In this document: piece after piece, positions 2,848 through 22,614 of the stretch
How positions within the stretch are numbered: the stretch's first letter is position 1
Layout of the letters: every line of letters starts with the position of its first letter
Assembly (NCBI GenBank): GCA_013388895.1
Contig: JACAEK010000024.1
Coordinates: 1 to 64,000 of the forward strand
DNA length: 64,000 nucleotides
Source of the DNA: Candidatus Bathyarchaeota archaeon
GTDB taxonomy: Archaea > Thermoproteota > Bathyarchaeia > Bathyarchaeales > Bathycorpusculaceae
Reading direction: 5' to 3'
Notes under the pieces: generated by a model
Seen by the model: the letters and a program-made list of their open reading frames with translations, nothing else
Told to the model about the DNA's origin: nothing
Database searches by the model: none
Position numbers and translations under genes: made by a program

Positions 2848-2952
2848 CAATGTAAGAAGCTCAGGTGCCGAGAATAAATCCGTAACGCATAAATTCGTTT
2901 TCTTATTTTTAGAAGTTTGATCGGGCGGTAGCTCAGCTTGGTAGAGCTTCCG

Positions 2953-2993
2953 AGCCAGCGTAGGTTTAAGCGTAAAGCTTAGCTGACGGAGAC
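2953..2993 (+). other. Non-canonical tRNA intron (position 30/31)
   Basis: 41-nt intron in the anticodon stem of tRNA-Tyr. The junctions meet bulge-helix-bulge geometry: the central helix CTTC (2947-2950) pairs with GGAG (2988-2991), one pair being T-G; bulges are CG|A (2951-2953) and AC|G (2992-2994), each cut after its second base. The inner helix includes CAGC (2956-2959) with GCTG (2982-2985). The outer helix is short, so this is a relaxed motif. Confidence 0.8.
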
Positions 2994-3000
2994 GCTGTAG

Positions 3001-3050
3001 ACACCTACCCATGGTGGATGCCAATCAGCCTATCAAGCGTACAAGCAGAG
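3001..3050 (+). other. Canonical tRNA intron (position 37/38)
   Basis: 50-nt intron directly 3' of the anticodon loop. Central helix CTGT (2995-2998) pairs with GCAG (3045-3048), one pair being T-G; bulges are AG|A (2999-3001) and AG|A (3049-3051). The outer helix is the anticodon stem, complete only after the upstream intron has been removed, which suggests an order of splicing. Confidence 0.85.
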
Positions 3051-3216
3051 ACCGGACTGTCGCAGGTTCAAATCCTGCCCGCCCGACCAAGCTTCTCTAG
3101 CGAAGAACAGCACGAATAACATTTTTTGTTCATGACTGAAGGCAACTGTGCTGAAACTTCCGGTGGGTTTGTTTTCAGAAGGCAACATGCGTAGTGGACG
3201 TTACTGCGGTTTCTAC

Positions 3217-3817
3217 TCAGTCGTCGGTTTTTTCCGAGTGCGCAATTAGATATCCGCCAAATCCAGCTCCCCACATGAAAAGTGGATAGACGATCATGCG
3301 TTCCATTCCGCCTGCACCTAGCCCTAAAGTAAATTTTGCCCGCAAAGAGGACCAACGCTCCAAGCGCTATCAGTCCCAGAACAACGGCTATAATAGAGAA
3401 TGACATTTCCACTAACTTGATCTTGTGAACGTATGAACATATGATGGAGAATATGGTTGATAGTCCGCCGAATAGAAACGCAATTAGTGATACTACTGTG
3501 TGGATTATGCCGAAGTCTTCTGTGAATATGCCGACGCCCATGGCGCCGATAGCCGTCAACATCAGAACCACGGTTAGCACCTTAAATTCTCTAAAGGCGC
3601 GCTGCAGAAAGTATGTTCCAATAAGCACTAATAATCCCAGAAGGAAGACAGATGAGTTGAAGACCATCGCGGAAGACCCGACTCCAAGATCGCTTATGTA
3701 ATTGTCCGCTATGCTGTAACCTGGATACAATGCTTCCGAGACAAACAGACATATGACGAATTGAGTTGCCGCAATGAAAAAGAGTGTTCCTGCCACTTTT
3801 CCATTAGCATAGACCAT
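3217..3817 (-). pseudogene. DUF998-family membrane protein, frameshifted
   Basis: A multi-pass membrane protein that I recognise as DUF998-like. It starts MVYANGKVAGT at 3817, has several hydrophobic helices, and carries the family's typical SEALYPGY and ISDLGVG segments near the N-terminus. After 'FAGKIYF' (about 3334) the frame runs into unrelated sequence. Moving one base restores a family-like C-terminus, including GGMERMIVYP and GFGGYLIAHSE, ending at the stop at 3217-3219. A single indel at about 3325-3340 therefore separates the two parts. It is either a recent pseudogene or a consensus error. Function of the family is not established. Confidence 0.75.
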
Positions 3818-3896: not shown

Positions 3897-5450
3897 TTAT
3901 CGCTCAATGTTTGCTTGTTCTTCCATTTCGTGAAGTATCAATTGGTCTCTTATTGCTTGTCTCAGTTTTTCTATTTCTTCACTTAGCACTCGGTCTTTTT
4001 TAAGCGCTGGCACAATTCTTCTTATAGCTGTATAAGCTTTTTTTGTGCCTTTTCCAAGTTTTTCTATTCCACGATACTCTACCGCTTGTGCAGCACATAG
4101 AAGTTCTATGGCAGTTATATACTCACTATTTTTCAGAATTTTCGCAGCTTTTTGAGCAGCTGTTGCGCCCATACTCACAAAATCCTCAAAGTTTGCCGAA
4201 GTAGGAATCGAGTCCACACATGCAGGATGAGCCAAAACCTTGTTCTCTGAGGTTAATGCTGCAGCTGTACACTGTGCTGTCATGAAACCACTGTTCAGCC
4301 CAGTCTCTGCTTGTGATGGAATGAGAAAAGCGGGTAAACCGTTGCTTAGTTTTTCGTCAACAAGCCTTGCTATTCGACGTTCAGAAAAGTTGCCAATAAT
4401 AGCCAAGGCTATTCCAAGCATGTCCATGGCAAGAGATATTGGCTGACCGTGGAAGTTTCCACCCGATAGGCATAAGCCTTGTTCAGGGAAAACTAGAGGA
4501 TTATCAGTAGCCGAATTAATCTCAACTTCAACCACTCTCCTAGCATATGCAATTGCATCTCTTGTAGCACCCAACACTTGTGGGGCGCATCTTAGACTGT
4601 AGGGATCATGAGGGCGTTGCATCTTATCGACAGCTTTTGTGCCCTTATGAACGAGTTTGCTTCCGACAATCAGCTTGAGCATGTTTCTCGCTGTTGTGAC
4701 TTGTCCATTGTGTGGCCTAGCTTTCTGGATATTTTCGTCAAAAGCGTCAGAAACTCCAAGCAAAGCCTCAAGCGACAAAGCTGTCGCAACCTCTGCTGTT
4801 TTAATCAAGCTTTCAGCGTCGTAAACAGCTAAAGCCCCTATTGCCGTCATCAGTTGCGTGCCATTAATGAGGGCTACTCCTTCTTTGGACTTTAGCTGAA
4901 CTGGCTCTATCTTGGCTTTCTTTAATGCCTCCTTTCCGCTTATTACTTTGCCTTGATATTCGGCTTTTCCTTCACCTATAAGTACCAGAATCATATGGGC
5001 TAGTGGGGCTAAATCACCGCTTGCTCCCACTGAACCTTTGGCTGGAATTACTGGATGTACACGTTTATTCAGCATTTCTACAAGTGTTTCTAATGTTTCT
5101 AGGCGTATGCCAGAAAAGCCCTTAGCCAACGTATTAGCTCGCAAAAGCATTAGAGCGCGAACGACTCCTGTAGTTAGGGGTTCGCCAACACCCACAGAAT
5201 GGCTTCTGATGAGATTAATCTGCAACTGCTCAATCTGCTCCGGCGGAATCATTCGATTATTTAATGCGCCAAAACCCGTGTTAACACCATAAATCACATG
5301 ATTCCCTTTTACTAGCTTTTCCAAAAAATCGCGACTACTCTTCACTTGTTTTTTGACTTTTTCTGGAATCACAACTTTTGCACTATCTCGCGCAACCTTT
5401 ACGACATCTTCTATTTGCAGCGCTTCTCCATCAATTGTTATTTCGTTCAT
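3897..5450 (-). CDS. hutH: Histidine ammonia-lyase
   Basis: Converts L-histidine to urocanate and ammonia, the first step of histidine breakdown; cytosolic homotetramer in the family. The 517 residues match the usual length. The Ala-Ser-Gly triad that cyclises to the MIO electrophile is at 143-145 inside GASGDLAPLAH. The N-terminal YGVNTGFG loop (54-61) supplies the catalytic Tyr, and the SGGNFHGQP block that binds substrate is present. No other hut genes are adjacent, so the fate of urocanate is not visible here. The same fold also includes phenylalanine/tyrosine ammonia-lyases and aminomutases, but the sequence reads as HAL-like. Confidence 0.9.
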   Translation of the reverse strand: MNEITIDGEALQIEDVVKVARDSAKVVIPEKVKKQVKSSRDFLEKLVKGNHVIYGVNTGFGALNNRMIPPEQIEQLQINLIRSHSVGVGEPLTTGVVRALMLLRANTLAKGFSGIRLETLETLVEMLNKRVHPVIPAKGSVGASGDLAPLAHMILVLIGEGKAEYQGKVISGKEALKKAKIEPVQLKSKEGVALINGTQLMTAIGALAVYDAESLIKTAEVATALSLEALLGVSDAFDENIQKARPHNGQVTTARNMLKLIVGSKLVHKGTKAVDKMQRPHDPYSLRCAPQVLGATRDAIAYARRVVEVEINSATDNPLVFPEQGLCLSGGNFHGQPISLAMDMLGIALAIIGNFSERRIARLVDEKLSNGLPAFLIPSQAETGLNSGFMTAQCTAAALTSENKVLAHPACVDSIPTSANFEDFVSMGATAAQKAAKILKNSEYITAIELLCAAQAVEYRGIEKLGKGTKKAYTAIRRIVPALKKDRVLSEEIEKLRQAIRDQLILHEMEEQANIER

Positions 5451-18781: not shown

Positions 18782-19419
18782 AAGGATACATCCTAGTCTA
18801 CACTGCTATGGATTTTCCAAGCGTAATCCTAGAATGTGAAGCAGACACAGCCCAAAAACTAATCAAGTATACACCTGAAAACCGTTTCATAATGCACGCG
18901 CCGCCAAATCTTCTGCCAATCATAAAAGAGAAAATCCCAAACTCAAAACATTACATTGAAAATTGGATGCTAGTCAGAAGAGGAGAAGCAAACTTTTTCA
19001 AATCAGAATTTGCGCGTAGATTACGCTCCGAAGAAGACGCTTCAAAACTTGCTATGCTTCTTTCAAGCCGTGAAGAACGCCCAACAGGAACAATACAAAG
19101 ATATTTTGATTGGATAAGCAAGATGCCGCTTTACGGAGTTTTCATCAATAGCGAACTAGTCGCTTACGCTGGTTCTTTCATTCAGCTACCACAAGTTTGG
19201 ATGATAGGCGGCGTCTATACGCATCCAAACCATAGAAACAAAGGCTACTCAACATTAGCTGCTTCAGCCGCAACCGAAGAAGCATTGAAGAATGCTGAAG
19301 CCGCAGCGTTATTCGTAAGGTCAGACAATTACCCAGCCATAAGAGTTTATGAAAAAATCGGCTACAAAGAAATAGGTGAAAAACTTTGGGTAGACGTGGG
19401 AACAGGACTTAAGCCCTAA
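18772..19419 (+). pseudogene. GNAT acetyltransferase, N-terminally truncated
   Basis: The C-terminal about 215 residues of a two-part acetyltransferase. The CoA-binding core is intact: GGVYTHPNHRNKGYSTLAAS, then LFVRSDNYPAIRVYEKIGY. The upstream part (from about DSLKGYILVYTAMDFPS) resembles the N-terminal domain of such proteins, but its first strands are missing; they are replaced by the aminotransferase fragment in a different frame. It could still be translated from an internal start, such as the ATG at 18808. It ends four bases into the end of valS on the other strand. Confidence 0.7.
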
Positions 19420-21878
19420 TATTCGCTGACAAAACTCATTTCTGGATATTCTTGAACTTGTCTGCCCTTGCCTTTGCCCTTTTCAGACAGAATTTCAAAC
19501 TGGGCAATTTTGCATGTTCCACTAATGACTTCTTTGTTATCGCTGATTATACTTGCGAAACGGCTGCTTCCCGCATAAAGTTTCACCCTCTTAATCTCAG
19601 CGTTCAAGGGTTTTCTTTTCTCAGCCTTTTCCCGCCTAACCTCTGTTATAACAGCCATCACCAAATCGCCCTTCTTCTCTATCTCTTCGTCGATTTTACT
19701 TGTTTCAGTAGTGGGCCAAGGCGTCAACTGCAAACTTTTTTGTCCTATGTCCTCAGAGTACATTGTTTGGTAAATTTCCTCTGTCATGTGAGGCATGATT
19801 GGAGCCAACAATTGGATTATTCGATGTAAGACTGTGTAAAGTGTGAATTGCGATGCCTTGCGAGCTTTTTCTCCATAAAGTTCTGGCTTGTAGAGCCGAT
19901 CCTTGACAGCCTCTAAGTATTGGTCGCAGAACACATGCCACGTGAAGTTGCGTATTTCCTCCATCACCATGTTGAATTGGCATTTCTCGAAAGCATCAGT
20001 AGCCCGCTGAGTCAGCCTTTCAGTCTTGCTCAAAACCCACCAGTCCAAAAGCTGCAACTCACTTTCCTCGCTGGGCACGTAATCTTTTAGCTGTGCGCTA
20101 ACAAATCGTGCAGCATTCCAAAGTTTAGTTATGAAGCGTCGCCCATATTCAACATCTTGCCAACGGAAAGGAATATCTGAGCCCGTAGCGCCGCCGTTTG
20201 CAGCCCACTGTCTCGTAGCATCAGTTCCAACCTTGTCCAAAACTTCCGGTGCAGCAACATAGTTTTTGAGTGACTTGCTCATTTTTCTGCCATCAGAACC
20301 CAGAACCATGCCATTGATTAGGCAGCTCTTGTATGGTTTTTCATTGAACAAGGCTAGGTGCCTAACCATTAAGTAATAAGCCCATGTTCTTATGATGTCG
20401 ATGCCGGAAGGATGCAAGTCCGCTGGAAACAGTTTTCGCCAATCCTCTTTGTATGGCCAACCAGCATGCACTGCACATGAGATTGAGGAGTCCATCCAGG
20501 TGTCGAAAACGTCTCGTTCAGGAAAGAATTCTCTGCCGCCGCATTTTGGACACTTTTCTATTCTTGGCTTTTCAAGTTTTGGGTCTATTGGAACCCATTG
20601 CTCTTCTGCTAATATGACTTCATTGCAATATTTGCAGTACCACACGGGTATTGGTGTTCCAAACACGCGTTGACGGCTTATCACCCAATCCCAGTCAAGT
20701 GAACGAGCCCAATCTATCAACCGAGTTTTCATGTAATCAGGATACCAGACTATTTCATTCGCCTTCTCTTCCAGTTTATCTGTTAAGATGCGGGTTCTCA
20801 TAAACCACTGCTTACGCTCCAAAATCTCAACTGGCGTTTCGCATCTGTCACAAACACCCATCTCTTGCTTAATCTTCTCAGTTTTCTGCAAAAGCCCAGC
20901 TACTTCCAAGTCTTTAGCCATGCTTTTTTTCGCCTCGCTTATTGTTAATCCCGCGTATTTGCCGCCGTTCTCATTTATCTTTCCATTCTCTGCCAACAAC
21001 GTTATAGCCGGAAGCTTATGCTTAATGACTGTTTTCACATCTTCCTTGTCGCCATAAGTGCATATCATGACTACGCCCGTGCCAAAAGACGGGTCAACAC
21101 CTTCGTCTGGAATAATATTGACTGCGCGGTTTACAACTGGAACAATGATTTTTCCACCTATATACTTCTTGAATCTATCGTCAGTCGGATTTATTGCCAC
21201 TGCAACACATGCAGGTATGAATTCTGGACGTGTCGTGGCTATTAGCAGATGGTTGGGGCTGTCTTCCAAAGGAAATTTGATGTAATAAAGCGCGCCCTCT
21301 CGTTCTTCATAGTTCACTTCGGCGTCTGCAATTGCTGTTTCACAGCCTGGACACCAATTAACTGGATGTGTACCTTGATACATGAAGTCTTTCTTGTGCA
21401 GAATTATGAAGCTTAGCTGGGTGCGTCTCCAATAGTCTGGATTCATCGTGCGATATTCAGTTGTCCAGTCAACGCTACAGCCCAAGCGAATTACGCCTTC
21501 TTTCATTATTGCAATATATTTTTCAACAAGCTGCTCGCATAGTTTGCGAAACTTGTCTGGAGGTACTTCCCTTTTCCTAATGTTATTTTCTTTTTCCGCT
21601 TGTACTTCAATGCCTAAACCATGGCAGTCCCATCCCTGCGGAAAATGAACATTATAGCCTTTCATGCGCTTGTAGCGAGCAACCATGTCAAAGTAGGTCC
21701 AGTTTAGCACGTTTCCCATGTGGAATTCGCCAGAAGGATACGGCGGCGGAGTATCAATGCTGAAAGTTGGACGTTTTTCGTCTTTCCAGTCGAAATGGTA
21801 AATGCCCATCTCTTCCCATTTCTTCTGCCACTTCTTCTCAATCGCAATAGCGTCAAACTCTTTAGGCAACTGCCTCAT
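19416..21878 (-). CDS. valS: Valyl-tRNA synthetase
   Basis: Charges tRNA-Val with valine, with an editing domain that removes threonine. About 820 residues, normal for archaeal ValRS. Class I signatures are PPYPSGEFHMGN (HIGH equivalent) and GRKMSKSLKN (KMSKS). The CP1 insert contains NWCPGCETAIADAE and a TTRPEF editing motif. Zinc-type cysteine pairs occur (CDRCETP; CKYCN; CPKCGG). I start at the ATG at 21878 (MRQLPKEFDA). The frame is open for another 68 codons upstream, but that stretch lies over the TPP riboswitch of the divergent gene and is not protein-like. Confidence 0.95.
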   Translation of the reverse strand: MRQLPKEFDAIAIEKKWQKKWEEMGIYHFDWKDEKRPTFSIDTPPPYPSGEFHMGNVLNWTYFDMVARYKRMKGYNVHFPQGWDCHGLGIEVQAEKENNIRKREVPPDKFRKLCEQLVEKYIAIMKEGVIRLGCSVDWTTEYRTMNPDYWRRTQLSFIILHKKDFMYQGTHPVNWCPGCETAIADAEVNYEEREGALYYIKFPLEDSPNHLLIATTRPEFIPACVAVAINPTDDRFKKYIGGKIIVPVVNRAVNIIPDEGVDPSFGTGVVMICTYGDKEDVKTVIKHKLPAITLLAENGKINENGGKYAGLTISEAKKSMAKDLEVAGLLQKTEKIKQEMGVCDRCETPVEILERKQWFMRTRILTDKLEEKANEIVWYPDYMKTRLIDWARSLDWDWVISRQRVFGTPIPVWYCKYCNEVILAEEQWVPIDPKLEKPRIEKCPKCGGREFFPERDVFDTWMDSSISCAVHAGWPYKEDWRKLFPADLHPSGIDIIRTWAYYLMVRHLALFNEKPYKSCLINGMVLGSDGRKMSKSLKNYVAAPEVLDKVGTDATRQWAANGGATGSDIPFRWQDVEYGRRFITKLWNAARFVSAQLKDYVPSEESELQLLDWWVLSKTERLTQRATDAFEKCQFNMVMEEIRNFTWHVFCDQYLEAVKDRLYKPELYGEKARKASQFTLYTVLHRIIQLLAPIMPHMTEEIYQTMYSEDIGQKSLQLTPWPTTETSKIDEEIEKKGDLVMAVITEVRREKAEKRKPLNAEIKRVKLYAGSSRFASIISDNKEVISGTCKIAQFEILSEKGKGKGRQVQEYPEMSFVSEY

Positions 21879-21949
21879 CTTGCAAACATCCAAACCTAAT
21901 TTGACTTTAGGAAAGATAAATATACAACTAAATAACAATTGCTCTCCAA

Positions 21950-22046
21950 GGTTTAAGGGGAGCTGGGACTGTGACCTGGCTGAGAGGACAGCAGAAAGCG
22001 CTGTCGACCCGTAGAACCTGATCCAGGTAATACTGGCGGAGGGAAA
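21950..22046 (+). promoter_or_regulatory. TPP riboswitch (THI element)
   Basis: Conserved TPP aptamer: GGGG-AGC at 21957-21963, the pyrimidine-sensor CTGAGA at 21980-21985, and the pyrophosphate-sensor region from GACCCGTAGAACCTGATC (about 22006-22023) into GGTAATACTGGCGGAGGGA. The gene's ribosome binding site, GGAGGG (22038-22043), belongs to the 3' side of the aptamer, eight bases before the thiT ATG. Ligand binding would therefore hide it, implying translational control. A TATA-like AAATATA lies upstream at about 21918-21924. Confidence 0.93.
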
Positions 22047-22050
22047 AAAC

Positions 22051-22614
22051 ATGAATGAAACTAAAACTAGATTCAACACCAAAGTTCTTGCAGAAATTGC
22101 AGTTTTTGCAGCTCTTTCAGCAGTATTGTATATTCTGCGCCCTTACACGCTTCCATACGGTGGCTCAGTAACCTTAGGTAGCATGGTTCCAGTAATGTGG
22201 CTGTCCATGAGAAGAGGCATATACGCTGGAATTGTGTCAGCAGCGATTTTCGGCATTTTAGCACTCCTCATCGATGTTACATTTCTTGGCGCCGCAAGCG
22301 TCATTGCGACTCCCGTACAGGTCATCCTCGAATATCCAATAGCCTTTGGAGTGCTCGGATTAGCAGGAATTTTCCACAAAAAAACTGTAGCCTTCGCAAT
22401 AGCAGGAGTAGGCATCAGCATATTCATCAAATTCGTGATACACTACCTTGTAGGCGTCTTCGTCTGGTATTATGTATACGCGTTTCCTCCAGAATGGGGA
22501 CAATATCTTTGGCCAGCCATCTACAACGGCAGCTTCCTCTTAGTGGAATTCATCATAAGTGCAATACTCATCGTCATCCTCGTGAAAAGGGGAACATTGG
22601 AATACGCTCTCTAG
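22051..22614 (+). CDS. thiT: Thiamine ECF transporter S component
   Basis: A 187-residue membrane protein with about six helices that binds thiamine for an energy-coupling-factor transporter. The N-terminal EIAVFAALSAVLYILRP, the GGSVTLGSMVPVMWLSMRRG loop (typical of ThiT) and the aromatic VHYLVGV-F-W segment support this. Control by a TPP riboswitch directly upstream makes the substrate assignment strong. The shared ECF ATPases and EcfT are not in this window; two other S-component-like genes (28406, 37684) could use the same module. Confidence 0.9.
   Translation: MNETKTRFNTKVLAEIAVFAALSAVLYILRPYTLPYGGSVTLGSMVPVMWLSMRRGIYAGIVSAAIFGILALLIDVTFLGAASVIATPVQVILEYPIAFGVLGLAGIFHKKTVAFAIAGVGISIFIKFVIHYLVGVFVWYYVYAFPPEWGQYLWPAIYNGSFLLVEFIISAILIVILVKRGTLEYAL

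Follow-up and report, generated by a model that had tools for sequence, protein, structure and literature searches.

A conserved element in the second intron of an archaeal tRNA-Tyr gene, a candidate H/ACA-like guide complementary to the D-loop of the same tRNA

Introduction

Archaeal H/ACA guide RNAs have a lower stem of 7-9 bp and place the ACA box 14-16 nt from the pair that closes the pseudouridylation pocket (PMC4652768). In Sulfolobus, which has a deficient Pus7, Psi35 of tRNA-Tyr is reported to be made by an H/ACA guide (PMC4652768, PMC6313347, PMC7991803). Guides can also reside in tRNA introns; the one named in a recent review of tRNA modifications that depend on introns is the C/D guide of tRNA-Trp (PMC11408192). 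Our literature search, which covered only a minority of subscription journals, turned up no H/ACA-like counterpart described within a tRNA intron. Regarding splicing, α2β2 endonucleases accept relaxed BHB motifs, and 30/31 is a known intron site, for example in split tRNA-Lys genes (PMC4090602). Ordered excision of adjacent archaeal introns is already built into tRNAscan-SE 2.0 (PMC8450103), and the highest published intron count per tRNA gene is three (PMC8450103, PMC4033280).

Here we analyze a tRNA-Tyr gene in a 64,000-nt stretch of archaeal DNA (the whole of which we call the window), together with its counterparts in related genomes.

Results

The tRNA-Tyr gene and its two introns

The sole tRNA-Tyr(GUA) gene detected in this very probably bathyarchaeal genome (1.58 Mb, 96% complete) lies on a contig of 174,976 bases, at positions 2922-3089 (+) of the window. 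It is interrupted by two introns:

2922..2952, + strand: exon 1, tRNA-Tyr positions 1-30
2953..2993, + strand: intron 1, 41 nt at 30/31; BHB with a 4-bp central helix
2994..3000, + strand: exon 2, positions 31-37, GCUGUAG
3001..3050, + strand: intron 2, 50 nt at 37/38; BHB; the spliced form is tRNA-Tyr
3051..3086, + strand: exon 3, positions 38-73, followed by the encoded CCA at 3087-3089

The unspliced gene was not recognized by standard tRNA scans and is otherwise misread by ARAGORN as a tRNA-Asp with a single 76-nt intron; a permissive Rfam tRNA scan matched 2922-3086 at 42.6 bits. Once both introns are removed, ARAGORN reports tRNA-Tyr(gta). The spliced product carries C1-G72 and A73, as expected of an archaeal tyrosine tRNA. 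The first-pass annotation had described a tRNA-Tyr with introns at 30/31 and 37/38, and its junctions proved right. It had also regarded a second intact tRNA-Tyr gene as evidence against activity, and tRNA scans of the genome found none. The best explanation is that this locus is the organism's working tRNA-Tyr gene, with a structure read from the sequence and splicing predicted from it.

Other features were noted in the surroundings of the gene. The 3' end of a DUF998 open reading frame (3068-3817, -) runs antisense over roughly 20 bases of the acceptor and T arm of the tRNA, and a gene of the aromatic amino acid lyase family lies nearby (3897-5450, -). Farther along the window, a TPP riboswitch (21946-22062, +, 66 bits) sits just upstream of, and slightly overlaps, an open reading frame for a YuaJ-like thiamine transporter (22051-22614). 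The riboswitch is also overlapped by the first part of an opposite-strand open reading frame for a class I tRNA synthetase (19416-22082); translation of this frame probably starts more internally. Elsewhere in the genome, five intron-containing tRNA genes (L063, L064, L066, L068, L070) received a doubtful anticodon or intron call from ARAGORN, and they probably harbor non-canonical or multiple introns.

Splice junctions and splicing order

Both junctions fit the BHB motif with a 4-bp central helix and 3-nt bulges, as the first-pass annotation had proposed. The central helix is formed by C25-G, U26-A, U27-G and C28-G for intron 1, and by C32-G, U33-A, G34-C and U35-G for intron 2. The inner helix of intron 2 is almost absent, so its BHB is of the relaxed type. 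The intron strand of its central helix is a separate feature:

3045..3048, + strand: GCAG, intron strand of the BHB central helix, distinct from the ACA box

Given the mature sequence, the intron 1 junction is unambiguous; for intron 2, cuts from 35/36 to 39/40 all give the same product, and the BHB selects 37/38.

The same arrangement recurs among relatives. The 37/38 intron was found in all 56 parsed tRNA-Tyr genes and the 30/31 intron in 48 of them, with 4-bp central helices in 55/56 and 48/48 genes, respectively; the central helix of intron 1 is always CUUC/GAGG or CUCU/GAGG. Because the same introns and central helices recur in most relatives, the two-intron arrangement is not due to chance. 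Position 30/31, which had been called a rare site, is thus used by 48 of 56 genes in this lineage and was known before (PMC4090602).

A broad-specificity endonuclease had also been anticipated, and the genome does contain two PF01974 endonuclease genes (L076, L077), one of which has the catalytic-triad His and Lys, whereas the other lacks both. The predicted enzyme would combine a catalytic and a non-catalytic subunit, as in the broad-specificity α2β2 type. The proposal that the outer helix of intron 2 can form only after removal of intron 1 goes too far, since 27-30 and 40-43 could pair around intron 1. Ordered removal of the two introns, a known behavior of neighboring archaeal introns, is plausible; the possibility of a fixed order raised on this basis stands to that extent, and was overstated, as enforced order is known in Archaea (PMC8450103).

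Some relatives carry more introns in tRNA-Tyr, four in 11 genes and five in 4 genes, located near 9/10 and at 30/31, 37/38, 53/54 and 59/60:

Four introns: L114, L092, L101, L129, L139, L140, L144, L147, L157, L216, L219
Five introns: L202-L205

ARAGORN identified the spliced product of each as tRNA-Tyr, and one four-intron gene (L114) belongs to the window's own genus. The T-arm introns (53/54, 59/60) of L092, L101 and L129 are near-identical between distant families, which suggests transfer, intron mobility or a binning error.

An element in intron 2 that pairs with the D-loop and the anticodon arm

The surprising part of the locus, missed by the first-pass annotation, is a phylum-wide element in intron 2 that pairs with the D-loop and the anticodon arm and ends in ACA. 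Here it reads CAGC-CUAUCAAGC-GU-ACA; in relatives it consists of XAGC, about nine bases, two more, and ACA. Its parts are:

2936..2944, + strand: G15-G22 of the D-loop, GCUUGGUAG, which would provide the 5' strand of a 9-bp lower stem; covaries in relatives with its partner at 3030-3038
Within exon 2: G31-G34, proposed guide-paired target, with U35 at 2998 as the proposed pseudouridylation site
3000..3022, + strand: upper hairpin of intron 2, beginning at G37, with two mismatches in the window (read from the sequence)
3026..3029, + strand: CAGC, a 3'-guide-like strand, pairs with G31-G34
3030..3038, + strand: CUAUCAAGC, the D-loop complement that forms the intron side of the lower stem
3041..3043, + strand: ACA box, with the guide strand beginning 15 nt before it

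Nine base pairs thus join the element to the D-loop of its own tRNA and four more join it to positions 31-34; U35-A36 remain unpaired. In relatives, the commonest upper stem has 10 uninterrupted bp, and the linker between this stem and the guide strand is mostly 3-6 nt long.

Base pairing between the D-loop and the intron is supported by covariation. The intron nine-mer tracks changes in the D-loop, GCUUGGUAG occurring with CUACCAAGC and GCCUGGUAG with CUACCAGGC; further partners are GCUUGGCAG with CUGCCAAGC and GCCUGGAAG with CUUCCAGGC. Among 105 distinct D-loop/intron combinations, whose upstream parse required an ACA and which are less selected than the alignment described below, the lower stem was fully paired (9/9) without gaps in 83 and with at most one bulge in 100; the distance from X to ACA was 15 in 98, and the box was ACA in 103. 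In an alignment of 55 variants in a fixed register, 99.3% of cells were paired, a value inflated by the choice of rows, each of which had to have an ANA box and no fewer than 8 of the 9 lower-stem pairs; slid registers gave less than 48%. Within this alignment, where cells count sequences rather than events, changes on both sides of a pair were observed in 34 cells versus 7.9 in shuffles; position 17 is UA in 27 variants and CG in 26, and position 20 occurs as UA, CG and AU. When D-loops were reshuffled among 26 distinct combinations, the observed pairing was never reached in 10,000 trials.

Pairing of CAGC with G31-G34 is likewise supported. The XAGC strand is paired in 100% of the 55 selected variants, and a single compensatory event was seen at L201, where G31 changed to A together with AGC to AGU. 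In the minimum-energy fold of the window pre-tRNA, AGC pairs with 24-26 rather than 31-33, which is a difficulty for reading the element as a guide. Across variants this alternative pairing is disfavored, as the partner of X is position 34 in 55/55 and position 27 in 0/55. The D-loop helix itself is present in the minimum-energy fold of the window transcript, both cut at ACA and as the full precursor; with at least 7 of 9 pairs required and intron 1 removed, the corresponding folds keep it in 41 and 35 of the 56 parsed genes. Five other intron-bearing tRNAs of the same genome showed no D-loop complement beyond chance.

The ACA was kept in 49/49 correctly parsed introns with at least 6 nt after the box, the window's included. 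It is not merely a splice motif, because in those 49 introns the BHB uses another sequence.

Comparison with the H/ACA architecture yielded both matches and departures. The 9-bp lower stem, one strand of which is the tRNA D-loop, agrees with the 7-9 bp rule, and the 3' guide strand pairs adjacent to the target U35, as the H/ACA rule asks; the 15-nt spacing from X to ACA (98/105) lies within 14-16 nt only if the linker is uncounted, since in most cases the end of the upper stem is another 3-4 nt away. The genome contains Nop10 and Gar1 genes. By inspection, no 5' guide strand pairs on the 3' side of the target, which continues directly into the upper stem, and a simple GA/GA test detected a K-turn or K-loop in 0/105 upper hairpins. 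Because it has neither K-turn nor 5' guide arm, we did not file the element as a canonical H/ACA RNA.

Distribution across the phylum

We found the element in the window's order, in further families of the same class (L165-167, L182, L190, L202-205, L207-209, L211, L214, L216, L219) and in families elsewhere in the phylum (L183-188, L192-195, L197-201, L222-240, L271), using a pattern search whose reach excludes the tRNA-Tyr of families with other D-loops. Named records with the element include Bathyarchaeota, Nitrososphaeria/Nitrososphaerota and Thermoprotei. It is also present in genes without intron 1 (L104-107, L113, L156, L158, L159), and we therefore rejected the idea that it is a helper for intron 1. 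The tRNA-Tyr genes L189, L191 and L196 have no proper ACA at the expected place. Two of these, L189 (genome G103) and L196 (G196), have a different intron type with long upper hairpins, in which a K-turn is conceivable by eye; L196 still has an AUA box and some weak complementarity to the D-loop. A further locus, L109 (G052:C54), is a decayed tRNA-Tyr-like copy in a genome with an intact gene elsewhere (L080).

Pus7 in genomes with the element

Absence of Pus7 was rejected as an explanation for the element, since TruD/Pus7 is present in 96/100 relatives with its catalytic Asp kept, though with a changed motif II. The three structurally characterized homologues used for comparison carry Lys or Arg after their catalytic Asp, reading KDKR (M. 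mazei and human) or KDRR (yeast). By contrast, 16 of 18 genomes with the ACA element and a readable TruD motif have KDA or KDT instead of KDK or KDR, in a small sample of mostly draft genomes. Family f30 has Ala or Thr at the same position, and its motif IIIa is changed too. Four genomes with the element (G042, G116, G113, G104; 92-98% complete) gave no TruD match, and KDK is kept in G103, which has no element, and in G120, where the box is degenerate. The exceptions are G181 and G397, which have both the element and KDK, and G196, which has KDA without a proper element. The overall pattern fits a handover of Psi35 from Pus7 to the candidate guide.

Discussion

We lean, with moderate confidence, toward reading intron 2 as an H/ACA-like guide for Psi35 that borrows the D-loop of its target as half of its lower stem. 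This candidate guide would probably direct anticodon modification in the unspliced precursor. Transcription would produce the 5' half and intron 2 first, and before splicing the two could fold in cis into an H/ACA-like guide. In this fold, G15-G22 of the D-loop would pair with the intron strand, a pairing that covariation supports, and CAGC would hold G31-G34, leaving U35-A36 open beneath the upper hairpin with ACA 15 nt away. Cbf5-Nop10-Gar1 may then dock on the ACA and the lower stem and convert U35 to pseudouridine. The D-loop/intron fold excludes the D-arm of the cloverleaf, and modification would therefore precede tRNA folding and splicing. The pre-tRNA would subsequently refold into the cloverleaf and BHB, and the α2β2 BHB endonuclease would excise the introns in two splicing events. 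On this scheme, the candidate guide may take over from Pus7, an enzyme that in this lineage has a changed catalytic motif.

The lengths and conservation of the element could also serve a role in folding or splicing. We consider it rather unlikely, though worth serious weight, that the D-loop/intron pairing is real but acts as a device for folding or splicing order. The 5' half would be kept in an alternative structure as it emerges, and the endonuclease would be held off until the whole tRNA has been made; ACA and its spacing would then be by-products of the BHB, in which CUGU pairs with ACAG. Indeed, ACAG itself is the BHB strand in 27/56 genes, and the helix, present in the minimum-energy fold of 35/56 pre-tRNAs, competes with the cloverleaf and the BHB. 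This explanation does not account well for the invariance of ACA in the 49 introns where the BHB strand is a separate GCAG or GCGG, for a spacing fixed at 15 whereas adjoining segments vary, or for the genes that keep the element without intron 1.

It is improbable, in our view, that the element positions U35 for Pus7 rather than Cbf5, as an archaeal parallel to intron-dependent Psi35 formation in eukaryotes. UGUAG at positions 33-37 of tRNA-Tyr fits the Pus7 consensus UNUAR, and TruD occurs in most genomes; however, motif II is altered in the lineages that bear the element, several such genomes have no TruD match, and the ACA box is left unexplained. More improbable still is an ordinary two-intron archaeal tRNA whose intron 2 has no further role: tRNAs with several introns are frequent in some lineages of the phylum (PMC8450103), but sequence conservation across the phylum and covariation with the D-loop speak against it.

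If the guide reading is true, an ordinary-looking archaeal tRNA intron gains a job that explains its conservation, the C/D guide of the tRNA-Trp intron gains an H/ACA counterpart, and the loss of conserved residues from Pus7 in much of the phylum is offered a reason. The element would also exemplify a guide RNA completed by its own target. The broader proposal, that a cis-acting H/ACA-like guide in a tRNA intron using the D-loop is an ancient Psi35 route of Thermoproteota from which the trans-acting guide of Sulfolobus derives, seems to us evenly balanced.

Several known systems resemble the locus in part. The multi-intron tRNA genes of Thermoproteales likewise have BHB introns at non-canonical sites with ordered removal, with a published maximum of three introns (PMC8450103, PMC4033280), whereas the relatives studied here reach four and five. 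The H/ACA-like guides of Pyrobaculum that have no lower stem (PMC4652768) share an incomplete fold with a guide strand and an ANA box; unlike them, with their K-turn, pseudo-internal loop and trans targets, the element described here would have its missing strand supplied by the target RNA. The Psi35 H/ACA sRNA of Sulfolobus and Aeropyrum (Muller et al. 2009, as cited in PMC4652768 and PMC6313347) serves the same uridine by an H/ACA route where Pus7 is deficient; as those citing papers present it, it is a separate trans-acting sRNA, while the present element is intronic and takes half of its lower stem from the D-loop. The pre-tRNA-Trp intron of Haloferax and Pyrococcus likewise holds a guide, of the C/D kind, for modifying the anticodon region of the tRNA it belongs to (PMC11408192, PMC6313347), with C/D boxes and 2'-O-methylation where tRNA-Tyr has an ACA box and a predicted pseudouridine 35.
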